Positions 21,104-30,666 of a stretch of DNA of 64,000 nucleotides are shown here, in pieces; positions within the stretch are counted from its first letter, which is position 1, and every line of letters begins with the position of its first letter. A program made the translations under genes and the position numbers. The DNA comes from Cyclobacteriaceae bacterium (lineage in GTDB: Bacteria > Bacteroidota > Bacteroidia > Cytophagales > Cyclobacteriaceae). Under the pieces are notes generated by a model. It was not told where the DNA came from and ran no database searches. It was given only the letters and a program-made list of their open reading frames with translations. Location: assembly GCA_019694875.1 (NCBI GenBank), contig JAIBBC010000001.1, positions 1,116,001 to 1,180,000 of the forward strand. The letters run 5' to 3'.

Positions 21104-21109
21104 TTTTTT

Positions 21110-22783
21110 CTAGAAGTGGCTAATTAACAAGTCTATCTGTTCGTCCGTTACTCCGGCTGGTTTGTTGTCCTTAAGAAGTTGTGCAAGAGAAGATAGGCCA
21201 TAGATATGTTTTAACATTTTTACTTCGATTTCAGGCAACGTGAAGCCAGTCACTCGGTCATCCACACCTCCAAACCCACGTTCAGGATAAGAAACACCTA
21301 ATTGATTAACATTATCAACAATATCAATGTAGATCGAAGTGTATTTTTCCGAATGCTTCTTAGTCCAATATTGGTAGGCATATGAATTTGGCTTTACAGG
21401 AGGCAAAACTGGAAAATAGTCTTCCCTACCATAATTGACTATCCCTCGTTCGCTATACTCTATATTTGTCAAATACCACTCAATGGCCGTTGCCCAACTT
21501 TCCTGTAACTCAGGGGAGACTTGCCAGTATTGAAGTACCGTATTCATTCTTATAACATGGCTTGTATGCCCAGTCTCGTGCGATGTGGTCGAGAACACTT
21601 CGTCTGACATGTATTCAGTGTTACTGTCGCGGTATCTCCAGATCTTAAGAATAGGTACGATGATCCAGTTAGTACCACTTGAACTTCCGGTATTATCCAC
21701 CGCTACGTACACGGTTCGTTTTCTAGTGAATAAGGGACCAGCAGCCCAACGCAATGGCCTTTGTAAGCCCCTAATATCTTTGTAATTATATCTATATCCA
21801 GCTCGGAATACATGCCCCGCAAATCTCTGATAGCCATTGTTTAAGTCATAGTTCCAATCGCCTGAGAGTTTAGGGCCGTTCACCCAGAATGTTGTGTTTA
21901 CTATATTATGTCTTACTGCAAACCTGGTTTGGGCGAACCAAATAGAATAATTACATACCTTACTTACAGAATGATTCATACGGAAATTGCCGTTGAAATC
22001 GGTATTGGCTTGCAATACTGTGAACCATCTTCTTGCTTGTACTCTCACCCCCTCCATTCCAATCCATTGCTGGAGCCTTGTATCAAACACCCTGATACGT
22101 CCACCCGGCCTGAATCTTCTGGCTGTTGTACCGCTTAAACATTCACTTTCTTCAATAATATCATCTGTATTTCCGGTTTGGAGATAGGCCTGATTTAGAA
22201 GCTTGAGCACGAAGCAATCGTCTGTTCCACCATTTCCGTAGTTAAATACAGCATCTTCTTCGGGTATATAGAGTTTGTCCAGAATTTCATATTCAATCTC
22301 TTTGGGAAAAGTATAGTCAGCTTTCACTGCCGTATATTGATACGTGGGTACACTATCTGGCAAGCTCGGGTCATGATAATAGTCTCCGTTTAGAATCACC
22401 GTGCTTTCGATTGGAAAATCTGAGAATGACAGGGTTGAATCTGCATGCAAAACTTCATACTCATCGGAATTTTTCGGCTTAAATTTTATGTAAAGGTGTG
22501 TTGTACGAATAGATGCTGGCGCGTTAGGTCTCAACCCGGTTTTAAGCAGGTATTGCCAAGCTGTTGTCATGTTCTGTACCGTGTAAGGATTTCGTTTGTT
22601 TTCCCCCAATATGATGCTCGCCCCCTCCTTGTATGGAGGGTCGCTTGCTGTTCGCGCTACCAAGTTTTGATTTTTCAAACTTTGATTGGGCTTTTTAATT
22701 AGCTCGTCATCCTGACAACTAAAAAAAACCAGAGCGAACACCAGTAAAACTAATGCCCGCGATTTCAAAATGATATTTTTCAT
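21110..22783 (-). CDS. Lipoprotein with HEXXH zincin motif
   Basis: A 557-residue protein. The lipoprotein signal ends in VFFSC (Cys at about residue 23). The middle (about residues 225-290) looks like a carboxypeptidase-regulatory or Ig-like beta fold (GGRIRVFDTRLQQW, then TDFNGNF). The motif HETGH at about residues 402-406, followed by Glu residues in PELQESWATAIEW about 25 residues later, has the form of a zincin metallopeptidase active site with a downstream Glu. The substrate is unknown. It is divergent from the lipoprotein at 23102 across a 318-nt spacer. It is AT-richer than the flanking core genes, in line with transfer. Surface or periplasmic location is inferred. Confidence 0.8.
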   Translation of the reverse strand: MKNIILKSRALVLLVFALVFFSCQDDELIKKPNQSLKNQNLVARTASDPPYKEGASIILGENKRNPYTVQNMTTAWQYLLKTGLRPNAPASIRTTHLYIKFKPKNSDEYEVLHADSTLSFSDFPIESTVILNGDYYHDPSLPDSVPTYQYTAVKADYTFPKEIEYEILDKLYIPEEDAVFNYGNGGTDDCFVLKLLNQAYLQTGNTDDIIEESECLSGTTARRFRPGGRIRVFDTRLQQWIGMEGVRVQARRWFTVLQANTDFNGNFRMNHSVSKVCNYSIWFAQTRFAVRHNIVNTTFWVNGPKLSGDWNYDLNNGYQRFAGHVFRAGYRYNYKDIRGLQRPLRWAAGPLFTRKRTVYVAVDNTGSSSGTNWIIVPILKIWRYRDSNTEYMSDEVFSTTSHETGHTSHVIRMNTVLQYWQVSPELQESWATAIEWYLTNIEYSERGIVNYGREDYFPVLPPVKPNSYAYQYWTKKHSEKYTSIYIDIVDNVNQLGVSYPERGFGGVDDRVTGFTLPEIEVKMLKHIYGLSSLAQLLKDNKPAGVTDEQIDLLISHF

Positions 22784-23101
22784 AAAGTTTTGTGTTTTAT
22801 GAATCTATCAAACTTTTCTAGTCTTTGAGGGTTTGCTCGCCAATGAGGGTATATCGAGATGTAAGATTAAACATGGTTTTTGGCGATCGACCAACGGCAA
22901 CCACGTGTATTAGTTAATGCAGTCAACAAGAGTGATGGAAATTTTTTAAAGTTTTTCCTGCGCTAATATCTGCGTGATGATATTAACTGGTGCTAATTAG
23001 TGCCAATTATACATCAAACTGTGCGAGTCACGCATCAGTAGATTTTCTTAAATGAGACATCTACCGTATTTGAATTTTTGTAAATATGCGGGGCTCAAAT
23101 T
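22784..23101. promoter_or_regulatory. Divergent intergenic region between two accessory lipoproteins
   Basis: A 318-nt spacer with no ORF. It contains AATATC-N8-GATATT (22965-22984) and an 18-nt near-palindrome with core CTAATTAG (22988-23005). It also has GTCACGCAT at 23027, which differs by one base from the GTCACGCTT box of the ubiquitin-like locus. These could be operator or promoter elements for the two divergent genes. Confidence 0.4.
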
Positions 23102-26488: not shown

Positions 26489-26833
26489 CTATAAATCTTT
26501 TAATCTACTCCATATAACTTTGCCCTTTTTAATATAAAAATGACTGCCACAACCCACCTTTCTCCAAATAGAAGGGTAGATGTTAATCCTGCTCCAACGA
26601 GTAAAAAATCGCCATCGTGGCCTTACTTTTTTTAGTAGATTTAAAGATATAGTTTCATTACAGCCACACGGACACTGAAAGGCAAGCATCCAATAGTTGG
26701 ATTTTTCTCCAACTATGTAAACAGTTCGATCATCAAGTTCTTTAGGTAGGTCTTCAGCAAACCTATACTTATAAGTGATTTTATTACTTGAATCTACTGA
26801 CTTGCTGTAAATAGCTTTTAACCAATTTTTCAT
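26489..26833 (-). CDS. DUF6527-like zinc-binding protein of the ubiquitin-like operon
   Basis: A 114-residue protein with a CPCGC cluster (Cys54, Cys56, Cys58) and a second pair in GCGSHF (Cys95, His98). It also has the family-like W-R-F and N-I-Y-P-S-I-W blocks. The spacing suits a treble-clef or ribbon zinc site. The pattern matches, from memory, the DUF6527 family that recurs beside bacterial multiubiquitin/E2-E genes. It starts 3 nt after the JAMM-E1 stop, so it is the third gene of that operon. An adaptor or E3-like role is an inference from the zinc motif and the position; no RING is visible. Confidence 0.82.
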   Translation of the reverse strand: MKNWLKAIYSKSVDSSNKITYKYRFAEDLPKELDDRTVYIVGEKSNYWMLAFQCPCGCNETISLNLLKKVRPRWRFFTRWSRINIYPSIWRKVGCGSHFYIKKGKVIWSRLKDL

Positions 26834-26836
26834 AAA

Positions 26837-28228
26837 CTACGCTTGTATGTCCATTGAATCCAAAAAGAGTTTGCGATCCCCAAGTCCCACTTTAGTAGCT
26901 AGGTAAGAATCTGTATTCAGTTGGTCTTCATGAGTATGAATAAAACAACCTTCTGTAATATCAATTGTTGTTCGGGCAAAATTTCCCGGATCGTCACTTT
27001 TATACGGGTGAAGCCTGTTCAGCATTTCGTTTACAGCATAACTGGCAATCATCATATTCACACTGATTACCGCTGGCCTGTTAACAGATATATTTTTGAT
27101 ATAAGAGTTCTTAACAAAATGAGCAAATTGCTCTGGATACTTCCTCAACAATCCGGCAGCCTTGAGATCCTCCAGATCGTACATTCCGCGAGATTTCAAT
27201 GAAGAAAGACCTGGTTGCAAATAATGCACAGTTCCGACTATTTTCGATATGCCTCCATTTCCATCAGCTTCAAGTTTAATCCCTAGGTCAAAGTATGGTA
27301 CGATGTAATATGTAGACAATAGGTTGACTAAATCTCTACCATCTACTGAATCTACACATCCAACGAGAATATCGGAACTAGCCAAGTCCCTTAAAACAGT
27401 TACATCTTCATACAAATTCACAGGGTATGAAGTTACTTCTGTGCCTAAATCAAAGTCTGAAATGGCATTCTTTAATACATGTACCTTGTGTTCGTCCTCT
27501 TCAGCATGCTTGCGTTTAGAATTGAGTATTCTATTGAGGTTTTTTAATTCAATCTTATCTGGATCCACTAATACCAACTTCCCAACCCCTAACCGGGTGA
27601 GTTGTTCAATTACAGGGCTTCCAGTTCCAGAGCATCCTATAACCGCCACCTTCATATTATTAAGTAGATTAAATGTGCCTTCGCCAAACGCTTGTATTGA
27701 GCGCTTGTTAACTTCGGCACTTGAACTCGTTTGTTTTTCGAAATTCCAAATCTTGATCACATCACCAGCAACAACGACTTTAGACAACTTAGAAAAGCTT
27801 AAGTCTGGATTAAAGATTCTTCCAAAAATTTCGCCATCTGGAAGCATTACTGCACTGGCGTGAGGTGCATCTGAATCCGTCCAACCATAGACAGATGAGA
27901 ACAGTGCTGCATCTGATTTATCATCTACTGATGAAAATTGATTATAGCCACCCGGATGGCTATGAATTTTAAGAATTGCAAAGTTTGAACTGGAGACCTT
28001 TTGGAGGAATGGAAGTAATCTTTCAGTCGGCCACGAAATTAGATCAACTGACCGCTGACACTCATCATGCGGGATCAGAACTAAGTCATGAACCAGTAGT
28101 TTATGCAGATCATTAGAAGAGTACCGCCCGCAAAGAGCGACTGCAACAGCCTCTAAGCCATCTCCCGGGAACAAGTGTTCTTTAATGGCATTGTAATGAT
28201 GACCCGATATGTTAAGCTGGAACTGCAT
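26837..28228 (-). CDS. JAMM protease-E1 (ThiF) fusion
   Basis: A 463-residue protein. The ATG at 28228 is chosen because it fits the JAB fold start and overlaps the previous stop by only 17 nt; a longer frame to 28477 runs inside the E2 gene. The JAB/MPN domain (about residues 15-165) has all JAMM ligands: Glu26, His89, His91 (HSHP), Ser99 and Asp102. The ThiF/E1 domain (about 180-430) has the nucleotide loop I-G-C-S-G-T-G, Asp222/Asp224, Arg233, Lys248 and Asp293 (CVDSVDGR). No CxxC zinc pairs are present; Cys291 and Cys428 are candidates for a thioester Cys. The protein could both process and activate the ubiquitin-like domain of the gene upstream. Confidence 0.9.
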   Translation of the reverse strand: MQFQLNISGHHYNAIKEHLFPGDGLEAVAVALCGRYSSNDLHKLLVHDLVLIPHDECQRSVDLISWPTERLLPFLQKVSSSNFAILKIHSHPGGYNQFSSVDDKSDAALFSSVYGWTDSDAPHASAVMLPDGEIFGRIFNPDLSFSKLSKVVVAGDVIKIWNFEKQTSSSAEVNKRSIQAFGEGTFNLLNNMKVAVIGCSGTGSPVIEQLTRLGVGKLVLVDPDKIELKNLNRILNSKRKHAEEDEHKVHVLKNAISDFDLGTEVTSYPVNLYEDVTVLRDLASSDILVGCVDSVDGRDLVNLLSTYYIVPYFDLGIKLEADGNGGISKIVGTVHYLQPGLSSLKSRGMYDLEDLKAAGLLRKYPEQFAHFVKNSYIKNISVNRPAVISVNMMIASYAVNEMLNRLHPYKSDDPGNFARTTIDITEGCFIHTHEDQLNTDSYLATKVGLGDRKLFLDSMDIQA

Positions 28229-28925
28229 TTGGCTTTTTTTCAAATTCCTGTTTAAACCAGTAACCGATAAGGCTAATATGCGTGCCCAAATTGTCAATTC
28301 CTTCACGCCACGGATTAGTGGCAGTGCGATGACGTGACCATCTTTGAAATTGTTTCCCATCGATTGGTTGGGGTGATGTCGCGCCAATAGGTTGCCCATC
28401 CTGCCGTTGTAAGGGTGGATAGAAGTAAGCCATATCAAGCTGTGTTCTAGGGTAACCTGGTTCAATCTTGATGGCAACCGCTACTTTTTCAACGTTATAA
28501 CCTACACATACAGGGAAATTATAGATTATGACCCACATGCCAACAGAATCAGAAAGGGTCTCCCAAGGGAGACCCAGACTGTTTAAAAATTCTTGATCTT
28601 CTTCGTGAAGTTCAAATTGTTTCCGGTTAGGTGCTCCCTCCGTTTGATCGAGCGGCAAAGTCATAAACTTCTCGACACCCGGCTTTGTAAAGCAGACTTT
28701 CTCGTTCAGTCCAATCACCTCGACCTTTCCACCCTTCAACTTCATATTCAATTGAAATTTTTCAGGTGGTCTTTTTCCTGCTAATTCCAACAGTTCACGA
28801 CCGGTCATGCATTCCTTTTCAACAACATACAATTCACGGTCGATCTTAATGCGGTACTTCTTTCCTTTCGGCACCGGTTTGCCCTCTTTTGTAAAGGCTT
28901 CCAAATCAATAATTTCAGTTTCCAT
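28212..28925 (-). CDS. Ubiquitin-like / E2-E family fusion protein
   Basis: A 237-residue protein. The ATG at 28925 is preferred over a GTG at 28952. Residues 20-92 match the bacterial multiubiquitin Ubl pattern (Y-R-I-K-I-D...T-G-R-E-L-L-E-L-A-G-K...L-K-G-G-K-V-E...K-P-G-V-E-K-F), in a single copy. Residues 100-232 match the prokaryotic E2 family E pattern (W-E-T...G-Y-N...I-E-P-G-Y-P...D-M-A-Y-F-Y-P-P...F-Q-R-W-S-R-H-R...N-P-W-R). Cys occurs only at 39, 78 and 140, none after the FYPP strand where a classical E2 has its active-site Cys. There is no C-terminal Gly-Gly; the Ubl ends in T-E-G at 97, then the E2 begins. It is the first gene of the operon, with a GTCACGCTT box 27 nt upstream. 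Confidence 0.9.
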   Translation of the reverse strand: METEIIDLEAFTKEGKPVPKGKKYRIKIDRELYVVEKECMTGRELLELAGKRPPEKFQLNMKLKGGKVEVIGLNEKVCFTKPGVEKFMTLPLDQTEGAPNRKQFELHEEDQEFLNSLGLPWETLSDSVGMWVIIYNFPVCVGYNVEKVAVAIKIEPGYPRTQLDMAYFYPPLQRQDGQPIGATSPQPIDGKQFQRWSRHRTATNPWREGIDNLGTHISLIGYWFKQEFEKKPNAVPA

Positions 28926-28952: not shown

Positions 28953-29001
28953 AAGCGTGACGATTCAGAAGGACGCAATCGATAGCTTTTATGTCACGCT
29001 T
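28953..29001. promoter_or_regulatory. Symmetrical divergent promoter/operator of the ubiquitin-like locus
   Basis: AAGCGTGAC (28953-28961) and GTCACGCTT (28993-29001) form a perfect 9-bp inverted repeat around a 31-nt spacer. Read on each coding strand, GTCACGCTT lies exactly 27 nt before both start codons (29029 plus, 28925 minus). In both, 4 nt further on, ATTTAGG follows. The identical layout upstream of two divergent operons points to one regulator for both: a dimeric repressor/activator, or the sigma factor encoded here. Confidence 0.7.
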
Positions 29002-29028: not shown

Positions 29029-29829
29029 ATGGAAATTCCTGATCAAAAGCGAGCTATAGATAAAACAGGGGTATTATTACCTCTCGTTAGATATTTATCT
29101 ACCTGTGCTACCGATCGCGAAGGTAATAGACTGAAAACAGCGTTTTATGATCTAATTGCACCAATCTTTTACGACAGATTAAAAAAAGTCGCCTCTAAAC
29201 TCTATCGAGGTATACCAGATTGGGAAGCTAGAACAGACGAAGTATTTAACGATACCTTTGAAATAGCCTTCGATGAGTTAAGAAATTTTGAAACTGGCTC
29301 TGGGTGGGATGATAGAGAATGTGAAAAGGTTATCCTTCACTGGATGGGCAAAATAGCTAACAATCTTCTGCTTCAGCTGACAAGAAAAGCTAAAGCACAG
29401 AAAGGTTTATTAAAAGCATACAAGGAAGTACAGAGATTTGATCTTGTTTCGGGAAGTGAACAACCCAGAAAACACGCGAGATTAACTTATGACAAGGAAA
29501 AGCTTGATAAATTTTGGGCTAAACTAAATCCAATGTCAAAGGAAATTCTTCTTGCATGCTCAGAACTTGGTACAATACGAGATGAGTCTGGAGAATTTCT
29601 TTCTGATGAAGAATTAGAACTGTTGAAACTAAGGAACTACCTTGGCTCCAGTGCAATTCCGAAAGAACTGAAGAAGTTTATAGACAAAGGGAACTTTGAA
29701 CAAAGCAACTCAGAACACTTGCCAGATGAAGTACAAGAATATTTAATGAAGAAGTACGATGTCGGGCAGGCAGCCATTCGCAAAGCGAAGCAGAGAGCGC
29801 TAGAAGGTTTAAGAAATTGTAAACTCTAA
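29029..29829 (+). CDS. Sigma-70-family (ECF-like) factor with an insert in region 4
   Basis: A 266-residue protein. The ATG at 29029 is preferred: the longer frame back to 28807 lies inside the divergent Ubl gene, and AGGAGAAAGG precedes 29029. Residues 35-125 look like sigma region 2 (F-Y-D-L-I-A-P-I-F-Y-D-R, N-D-T-F-E-I-A-F). Residues 162-262 look like region 4, starting L-N-P-M-S-K-E-I-L-L-A and ending in a helix-turn-helix (VQEYLMKKYDVGQAAIRKAK). About 50 residues (182-232) appear inserted between those parts. It is the first gene of the divergent operon, 3 nt before the next gene. Control of both operons from the shared box is inferred. Confidence 0.82.
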   Translation: MEIPDQKRAIDKTGVLLPLVRYLSTCATDREGNRLKTAFYDLIAPIFYDRLKKVASKLYRGIPDWEARTDEVFNDTFEIAFDELRNFETGSGWDDRECEKVILHWMGKIANNLLLQLTRKAKAQKGLLKAYKEVQRFDLVSGSEQPRKHARLTYDKEKLDKFWAKLNPMSKEILLACSELGTIRDESGEFLSDEELELLKLRNYLGSSAIPKELKKFIDKGNFEQSNSEHLPDEVQEYLMKKYDVGQAAIRKAKQRALEGLRNCKL

Positions 29830-29832
29830 CTC

Positions 29833-30666
29833 ATGGCAAAAGCTAATAGCAAAGCCGAAAAGGGATTAACCCCAAAAGAGAAAATTGATCTTCAATCCGA
29901 CATGAAAAAGTTCGGTTATTTACTGCCAACAAATGAAGAAGAGGAAGAAGAATTTAATAAGCTGTTTGGAAAGACTAAAGTTATTTTTCCTGAACACTTA
30001 AAGAGGCCTAAATTTTTGACGGATTCTACTTCTGAAAATTTTATCGAAGAGTCACGTTCGGTTGTTGTAAATAATTTGAGCGTTGAGGAAAGAAAGCCAC
30101 TTAAGGGGAAAAATGACTATTTCAAAAAATTAGTCTTAGCGGCAGAAATTGCAGATCAACTACATGGAGAGCCTACTTTTGGACACGTAAAGTTTGTAAA
30201 GGTCTACATGCTTTGTGACAAGGTTTGTAACATGGGCTTGTCCTCTCAATACAGAAAATTTGCTGCTGGTCCACTTGACCCCAAGCAGATGTACATGTTC
30301 GATGCCGAATTCAAGAAAAAGAAATGGTTTAAGGTAAGCCAACGATCAGGAGGTGGTTATCAATATAGTCCTGATGAAAACCTAGATGAATACCGTGTTT
30401 GGTATCAGCGTTATTTTAAGAATCAAACTGAGGCTATTGCCTTGGTAATTGAGTTGTTTAGAAAAAAAACATCTGATTTTTGCGAGATAGTAGCTACGGT
30501 TTTTTTTGTTTGGGCGGAGCACTTGTCTCAACGTAAGATACTTAGTGATTCATCTCTTATTCTAGATTTCTATGAGTGGGATGAGCGGAAAAAGAGATTT
30601 AAAGAAGAAGAAATTAAGAATGCAATTCGATGGATGGAGGAGAATCGTATATATCCGATAATTTAG
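29833..30666 (+). CDS. AAGP-motif protein related to type I R-M subunit C-termini
   Basis: A 277-residue protein that starts 3 nt after the sigma-factor gene. The N-terminal 95 residues are charged and low-complexity (a run of six Glu at 35-40). Residues 95-277 hold F-G-H-V-K-F-V-K-V-Y-M-L-C-D, then AAGPLD at 144-149. The end has E-W-D-E-R-K-K-R-F...A-I-R-W-M-E-E-N-R-I-Y-P. That closing pattern, from memory, is the one found at the C-termini of type I restriction-modification S and M subunits (W-x-P-x-K-x-R-F...A-L-x-W-M...G-L-x-P). Here it stands alone. The function is unknown; in this locus it may be a sensor or target-recognition partner. No catalytic motif is visible. Confidence 0.8.
   Translation: MAKANSKAEKGLTPKEKIDLQSDMKKFGYLLPTNEEEEEEFNKLFGKTKVIFPEHLKRPKFLTDSTSENFIEESRSVVVNNLSVEERKPLKGKNDYFKKLVLAAEIADQLHGEPTFGHVKFVKVYMLCDKVCNMGLSSQYRKFAAGPLDPKQMYMFDAEFKKKKWFKVSQRSGGGYQYSPDENLDEYRVWYQRYFKNQTEAIALVIELFRKKTSDFCEIVATVFFVWAEHLSQRKILSDSSLILDFYEWDERKKRFKEEEIKNAIRWMEENRIYPII

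Follow-up and report, generated by a model that had tools for sequence, protein, structure and literature searches.

A Bub-type ubiquitin-like conjugation operon faced by a putative sigma-factor module in a Cyclobacteriaceae bacterium

What holds costly immune operons in check in bacteria before the need for them arises is an open question, and one account of such operons counts three DNA-damage controllers for them (PMC13373217). The question is raised again by a 64,000-nucleotide stretch of a Cyclobacteriaceae genome (assembly GCA_019694875.1, contig JAIBBC010000001.1, positions 1,116,001 to 1,180,000; this whole stretch is called the window here), in which a three-gene operon for ubiquitin-like (Ubl) conjugation on the minus strand, by sequence comparison almost certainly a Bub operon, has two divergent neighbours lying outside 26489..28925, one for a sigma-like protein and one for what is called the middle protein below. 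The operon by itself is one more member of an already described type; what appears new at the locus is the sigma module, which is worth testing. The explanation favoured here, with reasonable confidence as a whole, is that the Bub operon stands under a dedicated divergent sigma switch. Control of the operon by the divergent pair is likely, and the chances that this control takes an anti-sigma/protease form are about even. The loci themselves display the gene order, divergence in most cases, the twin outward elements and a recurrent link with immune operons.

Genes related to the window sigma gene lie upstream of 16 of the 38 Bub loci compared (a non-random sample, in which locus L012 stops short of its upstream gene), and they fall into two groups, A and B. 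When run against the PDB, the profile of group A (16 genes, those of the window and of non-Bub loci included) retrieves sigma factors with a best E of 1.2e-6, 20 of its 21 rows being so named, and the profile of group B (nine genes) has sigma factors as its first nine rows (best E 1.5e-6). Among 21 proteins scanned singly, four (L016, L040, L055 and L073) carry Sigma70_r2 over the cut-off, and phmmer ties the window protein to L016 and L018. By its group profile the window gene would encode a sigma factor of the extracytoplasmic function (ECF) kind, an assignment that is weak for the gene taken alone.

The gap between the two transcription units reads AAGCGTGAC ... GTCACGCTT in the window and in four close loci (L012, L013, L014 and L038), with arms invariant in 5/5 and a spacing that varies. 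The exact pair, at a spacing of 5-35 bp, occurs once in the genome, at this gap, and related elements occur in other group-A loci. A held-out test used training sites marked by eye and excluded those from the group of the tested locus. Of the 17 group-A loci, 12 scored at a level reached by 3/300 shuffles or fewer, five of these 12 being close relatives of each other; L079 reached 0/300 though no training site had been marked there. A test for inverted repeats gave no significance in L073, L076, L079, L080, L083, L084, L017, L040, L046 and L060, where 93-298 of 300 shuffles did equally well. Two group-B loci, L008 and L017, share another pair, AGTATG[T/C]TA, which stands above shuffles in the first (3/300) but not in the second (99/300). 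As a separate observation made by eye, the gap between sigma gene and facing operon in L075, L076, L080, L081 and L084 contains the start of a small basic open reading frame (ORF) whose first residues resemble MATNPPKDGSRKG, MAVNKPTGDNARKG or MAKDSSGKKFNR.

The association of the module with other immune operons was searched for with the middle protein alone. Alignment A1, seeded from Bub loci only, found matches in 7/395 genomes, and alignment A4, which is A1 with four new members, in 9/395 and 10/395 (overlapping sets). These searches gave 15 genomes in total: the seeds' own (G000 and G049), G461, which repeats a seed contig, two spurious ones and ten new ones. L077 (G364) and L086 (G634) were dropped as middle-protein matches that lack the trio, and L082 (G461) as the same contig as seed L018. 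In all ten new loci a sigma-like, a middle and an M78 peptidase gene follow one another in that order, with the first two overlapping in 8/10 and the last two in 10/10 by ORF limits (in L083 the stop of the middle gene falls inside the translated stretch, and the start used is one codon late). M78 is over its cut-off and HExxH is present in 10/10, and a leave-one-out sigma profile regains the first gene of each of the ten (E 6e-37 to 2e-67). An immune operon is faced by the module in 9/10 of these loci. Four are of Ubl type: L074, L079 and L085 with Multi_ubiq and ThiF, the first and last of them also with DUF6527, and L073 with YukD and JAB over the cut-off and ThiF under it. The other five belong to the cyclic-oligonucleotide-based antiphage signalling systems (CBASS), with SMODS or DncV cyclases in L075, L076, L080 and L081 and a PADLOC cyclase (E 4.5e-77) plus an E2 in L083. 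The window genome holds 14 other sigma-profile matches, none near its four ThiF operons, cyclases not having been searched for. A side observation concerns L079 (G186, same genus), whose operon, unlike the Bub operon of the window, runs Multi_ubiq, a gene of 134 amino acids (aa) and a 472-aa ThiF, with a 524-aa last gene.

The middle protein is common to the modules in its N-terminal part (alignments A1 and A4), and its C-terminal part resembles the ends of profiles for type I methyltransferase and specificity subunits (their C-termini). The third gene differs between loci. It is an M78 (ImmA/IrrE) peptidase in L016, L017, L039, L040, L046 and L060, and a caspase-family protein in L013, L014 and L038, the closest relatives tested; in L008 nothing beyond a weak match of C39-like type (E 0.055) was seen. 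On an Abditibacteriota plasmid it is a 1145-aa protein (L055:1345-4782) that joins M78 to a UvrD helicase and a PDDEXK match. HExxH is kept in 18/18 M78 proteins examined. A caspase-like homologue with 42% identity is encoded elsewhere in the window genome (C4:115798-116580).

Taking these pieces together, the switch would work as follows. The middle protein would hold the ECF-like sigma factor, and the peptidase of the module, M78 in most relatives and caspase-like in the closest ones, would cleave it. The sigma factor thus freed would fire both outward promoters, its own and that of the Bub operon. As for the trigger of cleavage, DNA damage is the best guess, because of CapP and of the UvrD fusion in L055.

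A number of observations weigh against this reading. The window sigma ORF has no Pfam match and reaches NCBIfam sigma70-ECF only below the cut-off (E 7e-4), its structural model is weak (predicted local distance difference test score 69.8, predicted template modelling score 0.42), and a Foldseek search with this model ranks sigma factors first but at no E below 1e-3. A sigma profile built from the six Bub-locus genes alone regains only L073 and L085 of the ten new loci, which leaves the window gene connected only indirectly with the sigma genes on the CBASS side. The sigma-like gene of L039 and L054 lies on the strand of the operon, not divergent from it. The element test fails in L073, L075, L080, L084 and L085, a simple scan found the element absent from seven group-B loci, and the trio of L084 faces a 417-aa gene with no Pfam or PADLOC match and no recognised immune operon. 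The middle protein is a candidate anti-sigma, whose binding to sigma we only infer. In the window, moreover, no peptidase gene adjoins the pair, the next gene standing 131 bp on and on the opposite strand; therefore, cleavage would need a peptidase in trans. Finally, according to PMC13373217, protection of cells against phage is yet to be demonstrated for Bub itself.

The three genes of the operon, the divergent pair and the elements between them are located in Table 1. Because the E2 part of the Ubl-E2 protein matches Citrobacter BubB in the PDB (E 2.5e-22), residues 12-450 of the JAB-E1 protein match Citrobacter BubCD (E 5.1e-69), and the same gene set is found in L048, the operon can be placed among the Bub operons. 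L048 lies on a plasmid of Enterobacter roggenkampii, and its Bub genes are preceded by CapS WP_001567865.1, the same accession that is named beside the Bub operon of another strain (PMC13373217); downstream of CapS come genes for a multiubiquitin protein (containing an E2 domain), ThiF and DUF6527.

Table 1. Position of the operon, the divergent genes and the sites discussed (window coordinates)
Feature	Position	Strand	Size and basis
Outward element facing the Bub operon	28953..28961	-	GTCACGCTT; invariant in aligned loci
Outward element facing the sigma gene	28993..29001	+	GTCACGCTT; invariant in aligned loci
Putative ECF-like sigma factor	29029..29829	+	266 aa; group profile against PDB, phmmer links
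Middle protein, candidate anti-sigma	29833..30666	+	277 aa; alignments A1 and A4; PADLOC PDLC03039, E 3.5e-34
Ubl-E2 fusion (BubA-BubB fusion)	28212..28925	-	237 aa; Pfam and PDB BubB
Multi_ubiq part of the Ubl-E2 gene	about 28656-28856	-	Pfam
Prok-E2_E part of the Ubl-E2 gene	about 28251-28610	-	Pfam
Gly97 codon, predicted last residue of the mature Ubl, after which JAB would cut	28635..28637	-	Ends of standalone Ubl ORFs
Candidate acceptor motif Ser197-Arg198-His199 in the E2 fold	28329..28337	-	Conservation
JAB (JAMM) protease-ThiF/E1 fusion (BubCD)	26837..28228	-	463 aa from ATG; Pfam and PDB BubCD
DUF6527 small protein	26489..26833	-	PF20137, E 1.6e-21 (Pfam)

The initial annotation, in which the divergent sigma-type neighbours do not figure, had described three tightly packed minus-strand genes, the first two overlapping by 17 nt and the next separated by 3 nt, and the coordinates agree with it: the gap separates JAB-E1 from DUF6527, and the overlap of Ubl-E2 and JAB-E1 follows from taking the start of the latter at the ATG at 28228, which is its likely start, the frame remaining open upstream as far as a TTG at 28477. 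Its two fusions are borne out in Pfam. In the first, Multi_ubiq (PF14452, E 1.5e-10, residues 24-90) and Prok-E2_E (PF14462, E 1.4e-34, residues 106-225) are both over their cut-offs; in the second (ORF 26837-28477, minus strand), ThiF is over the cut-off (E 3.8e-26) and Prok-JAB falls just below it (E 3.5e-5). Two descriptions need correction. The E2-E domain has the fold but lacks a conserved cysteine, and the small CPCGC protein is present as a member of a known Pfam family, DUF6527. The view that the fused two-protein form departs from both the Bub and the Bil loci stands for Bil, described as four separate proteins (BilABCD) with a tandem-Ubl BilA (PMC11354881), where the window has a single Ubl, a fused E2 and a fused JAB-E1. 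It does not stand for Bub. The BubCD of the PDB is one chain, so the fused JAB-E1 is the published Bub form, and fusion of a polyUbl to an inactive E2-like domain is noted in section 14 of Iyer 2006 (PMC1779556). With other Bub operons the window shares homologues of BubB and of the JAB-E1 protein BubCD, a multiubiquitin-type Ubl, DUF6527 and the mobile, defence-rich setting described for them, and differs from them in its single Ubl fused to E2. The polyUbl operon type listed in row 6e of Table 1 of Iyer 2006 has in common with it the Ubl, an E2-like fold without cysteine, the JAB-E1 fusion, a metal-binding protein and the Ubl-E2 fusion; the list there gives Proteobacteria, Actinobacteria and Cyanobacteria, not Bacteroidota, and neither section 14 nor that row describes a regulator (PMC1779556).

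Conservation in the JAB-E1 and E2 parts was read from 38 sequences, the window included. The JAMM ligands and E1 nucleotide motifs, intact as first annotated, are also invariant or nearly so in this set: E26, H89 and H91 are kept in 38/38, S99 and D102 in 37/38, and the E1 residues G198, G201, G203, R233, K248, D293 and D314 in 38/38. The sole well-conserved E1 cysteine, C291 (36/38), lies within a Cys-Val-Asp stretch preceding D293. The E2-fold domain shows no conserved cysteine across the same sequences; its Tyr158, Ser197, His199 and Trp206 (numbering of the 237-aa protein) are invariant, and within its Ser-Arg-His motif Ser is kept in 38/38, Arg in 35/38 and His in 38/38. The DUF6527 protein has a Cys3-His pattern (C54, C58, C95, H98) and an invariant Pro87-Ser88 in 33 sequences, that of the window among them. 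Relatives contain 14 standalone Ubl ORFs detectable by profile, counted where at most 12 residues follow the Gly97 column (one Ubl-like ORF, in L045, was missed by the profile); all 14 have Gly in that column, eight end exactly there and six extend 2-8 residues past it. Gly97 is therefore the likely cut site, and JAB cleavage after it is the natural prediction because the E2 domain follows Gly97 in the window fusion. The JAB domain, judging from these natural gene splits, would cut the Ubl-E2 precursor after Gly97. The E1 domain, whose motifs are present, would adenylate this residue, and the Ubl would move to the E2-fold domain, most likely to Ser197 and not to a cysteine, and then to a target; JAB and perhaps DUF6527 may reverse or edit the conjugation. 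A conserved serine without a cysteine is consistent with the route that Bub is said to use, which reportedly consists of oxyester conjugation of protein and involves a Ser-His protease.

The divergent pair could be read differently, as a sigma-derived repressor and derepressor in the manner of CapH and CapP, in which the sigma-like protein blocks the operon until the peptidase removes it. Cleavage of the repressor CapH by CapP is published logic (PMC13373217), an annotated helix-turn-helix (HTH) and ImmA/IrrE pair occupies the same place in the Bub loci L049, L052, L056, L057 and L061, and the arms are spaced by 8-32 bp across seven loci, a variation that would let each arm serve as a separate operator. 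However, groups A and B both retain similarity to sigma factors, and all group-A modules examined include a third protein that CapH+CapP does not have; we regard this reading as rather unlikely. It is more doubtful still, and improbable in our estimate, that the two genes make up a defence or toxin-antitoxin unit of their own, merely sharing an island with Bub and other immune operons. Defence genes cluster anyway, the site is variable within the genus, and the middle protein matches, in its C-terminal part, the C-terminal ends of DarG and type I restriction profiles; but in 9/10 non-seed loci the immune operon occupies that very divergent position and is not just nearby, and the outward twin elements lie in the shared gap of many such loci.

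Another reading concerns the operon itself, which might modify small molecules or carry sulphur instead of conjugating protein. ThiF relatives do perform sulphur chemistry. The E2-fold domain, moreover, has no conserved cysteine, and Iyer 2006 calls the E2-like domain inactive for want of one (PMC1779556). Against this stand the invariant Ser and His of the Ser-Arg-His motif, the identity of the nearest relatives with a solved structure, BubB and BubCD, and the oxyester conjugation of protein reported for Bub, leaving this reading with very little probability.

The preferred explanation, a Bub operon under a sigma switch, has counterparts on CRISPR loci, where Calp (CalpL/CalpT/CalpS) and Csx29/Csx30/CASP-sigma are worked-out cases of the logic in which an immune system comes with a sigma factor, its partner and a protease. 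Their proteases, Lon-SAVED and CHAT, are under CRISPR control, whereas the relatives of the window module carry M78 or caspase-like (C14) peptidases beside operons without CRISPR, and neither an adjacent Lon-SAVED or CHAT protease nor a CRISPR locus accompanies the window pair. An ECF-like sigma factor is supported here by the group profile, weakly by the window gene alone. CapH+CapP is likewise a promoter-side gene set with an ImmA/IrrE-type peptidase that controls immune operons, but CapH is described as a DNA-binding repressor, where a sigma-like protein and a third protein are found here; Pfam found neither an HTH family nor M78 in the window pair. A DNA-damage controller stands beside Bub in a part of the published cases; those named in PMC13373217 are CapW, CapH+CapP and CapK+CapS, and no gene of these types was present among the scanned window neighbours, which have the sigma-like pair instead. 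Among the papers listed by literature searches, none describes the sigma module in its title and abstract, a mention in Ye 2026, Gong 2025, Chambers 2024 or Burroughs 2011 being possible. We lean slightly towards a fourth family of immune-operon controllers, made up of an ECF-like sigma factor, an anti-sigma and a peptidase that can be exchanged (M78, caspase-like or perhaps C39-like). Across Bacteroidota it would stand before operons of the Bub, other Ubl and CBASS types, a related set would accompany Bub on plasmids of Proteobacteria, planctomycetes and Abditibacteriota, and regulated proteolysis would turn the operons on via the paired outward promoter elements. If true, a switch common to Ubl-type and CBASS operons would mean activation, not derepression; the module would serve as a marker for finding further immune operons, and CRISPR-linked sigma switches would be tied to non-CRISPR immunity.

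The genomic setting is an accessory one. G+C content is 0.38-0.43 from about 21 to 32 kb and 0.44-0.50 elsewhere in the window (2-kb steps), in line with the AT-richer, defence-like block proposed at the outset. The Bub locus is a variable site in the genus, since the conserved neighbours on either side of it (window positions about 21108-22807, and 30792 onwards) enclose different genes in G398, where Bub is missing. Some JAB-E1 match is found in 12/17 genomes of the genus, close (E below 1e-200) in 2/17, the window genome and G049, and at best 1.5e-14 in the others; Prok-E2_E occurs in 9/395 genomes drawn from Bacteroidota. Plasmid records matching the Ubl-E2 protein number 99, of which 54 are typed conjugative, and restriction-modification, abortive infection (Abi), CBASS-like, gamma-mobile-trio or transposon genes lie near Bub on some of them (20/99 regions examined).

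The window genome contains three more Ubl/E1 operons. One, at C1:1626-1634k (L008), is a close paralogue of Bub that has a sigma gene of group B and, by eye, McrBC-like genes in its vicinity, a 585-aa one of which has AAA matches. At C4:111-116k (L009) a divergent Ubl/E2/JAB-E1/DUF6527 set is accompanied by a kinase-like gene (by eye) and a caspase-like gene, and at C3:70-75k (L010) a DUF2604/Metal_CEHH/JAB-like/E1 set is followed by STAS- and PIN-like genes (by eye). Among other Bub loci, L052 and L060 have, downstream and on the other strand, a pair of genes for an S8 peptidase and an AAA/ATP-binding protein, and a gene annotated as a Clp protease proteolytic subunit follows DUF6527 in L051. 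In L058 and L062 the divergent position upstream of the Ubl gene is taken by an annotated Fic-family gene with a small partner, possibly another controller or a toxin pair.

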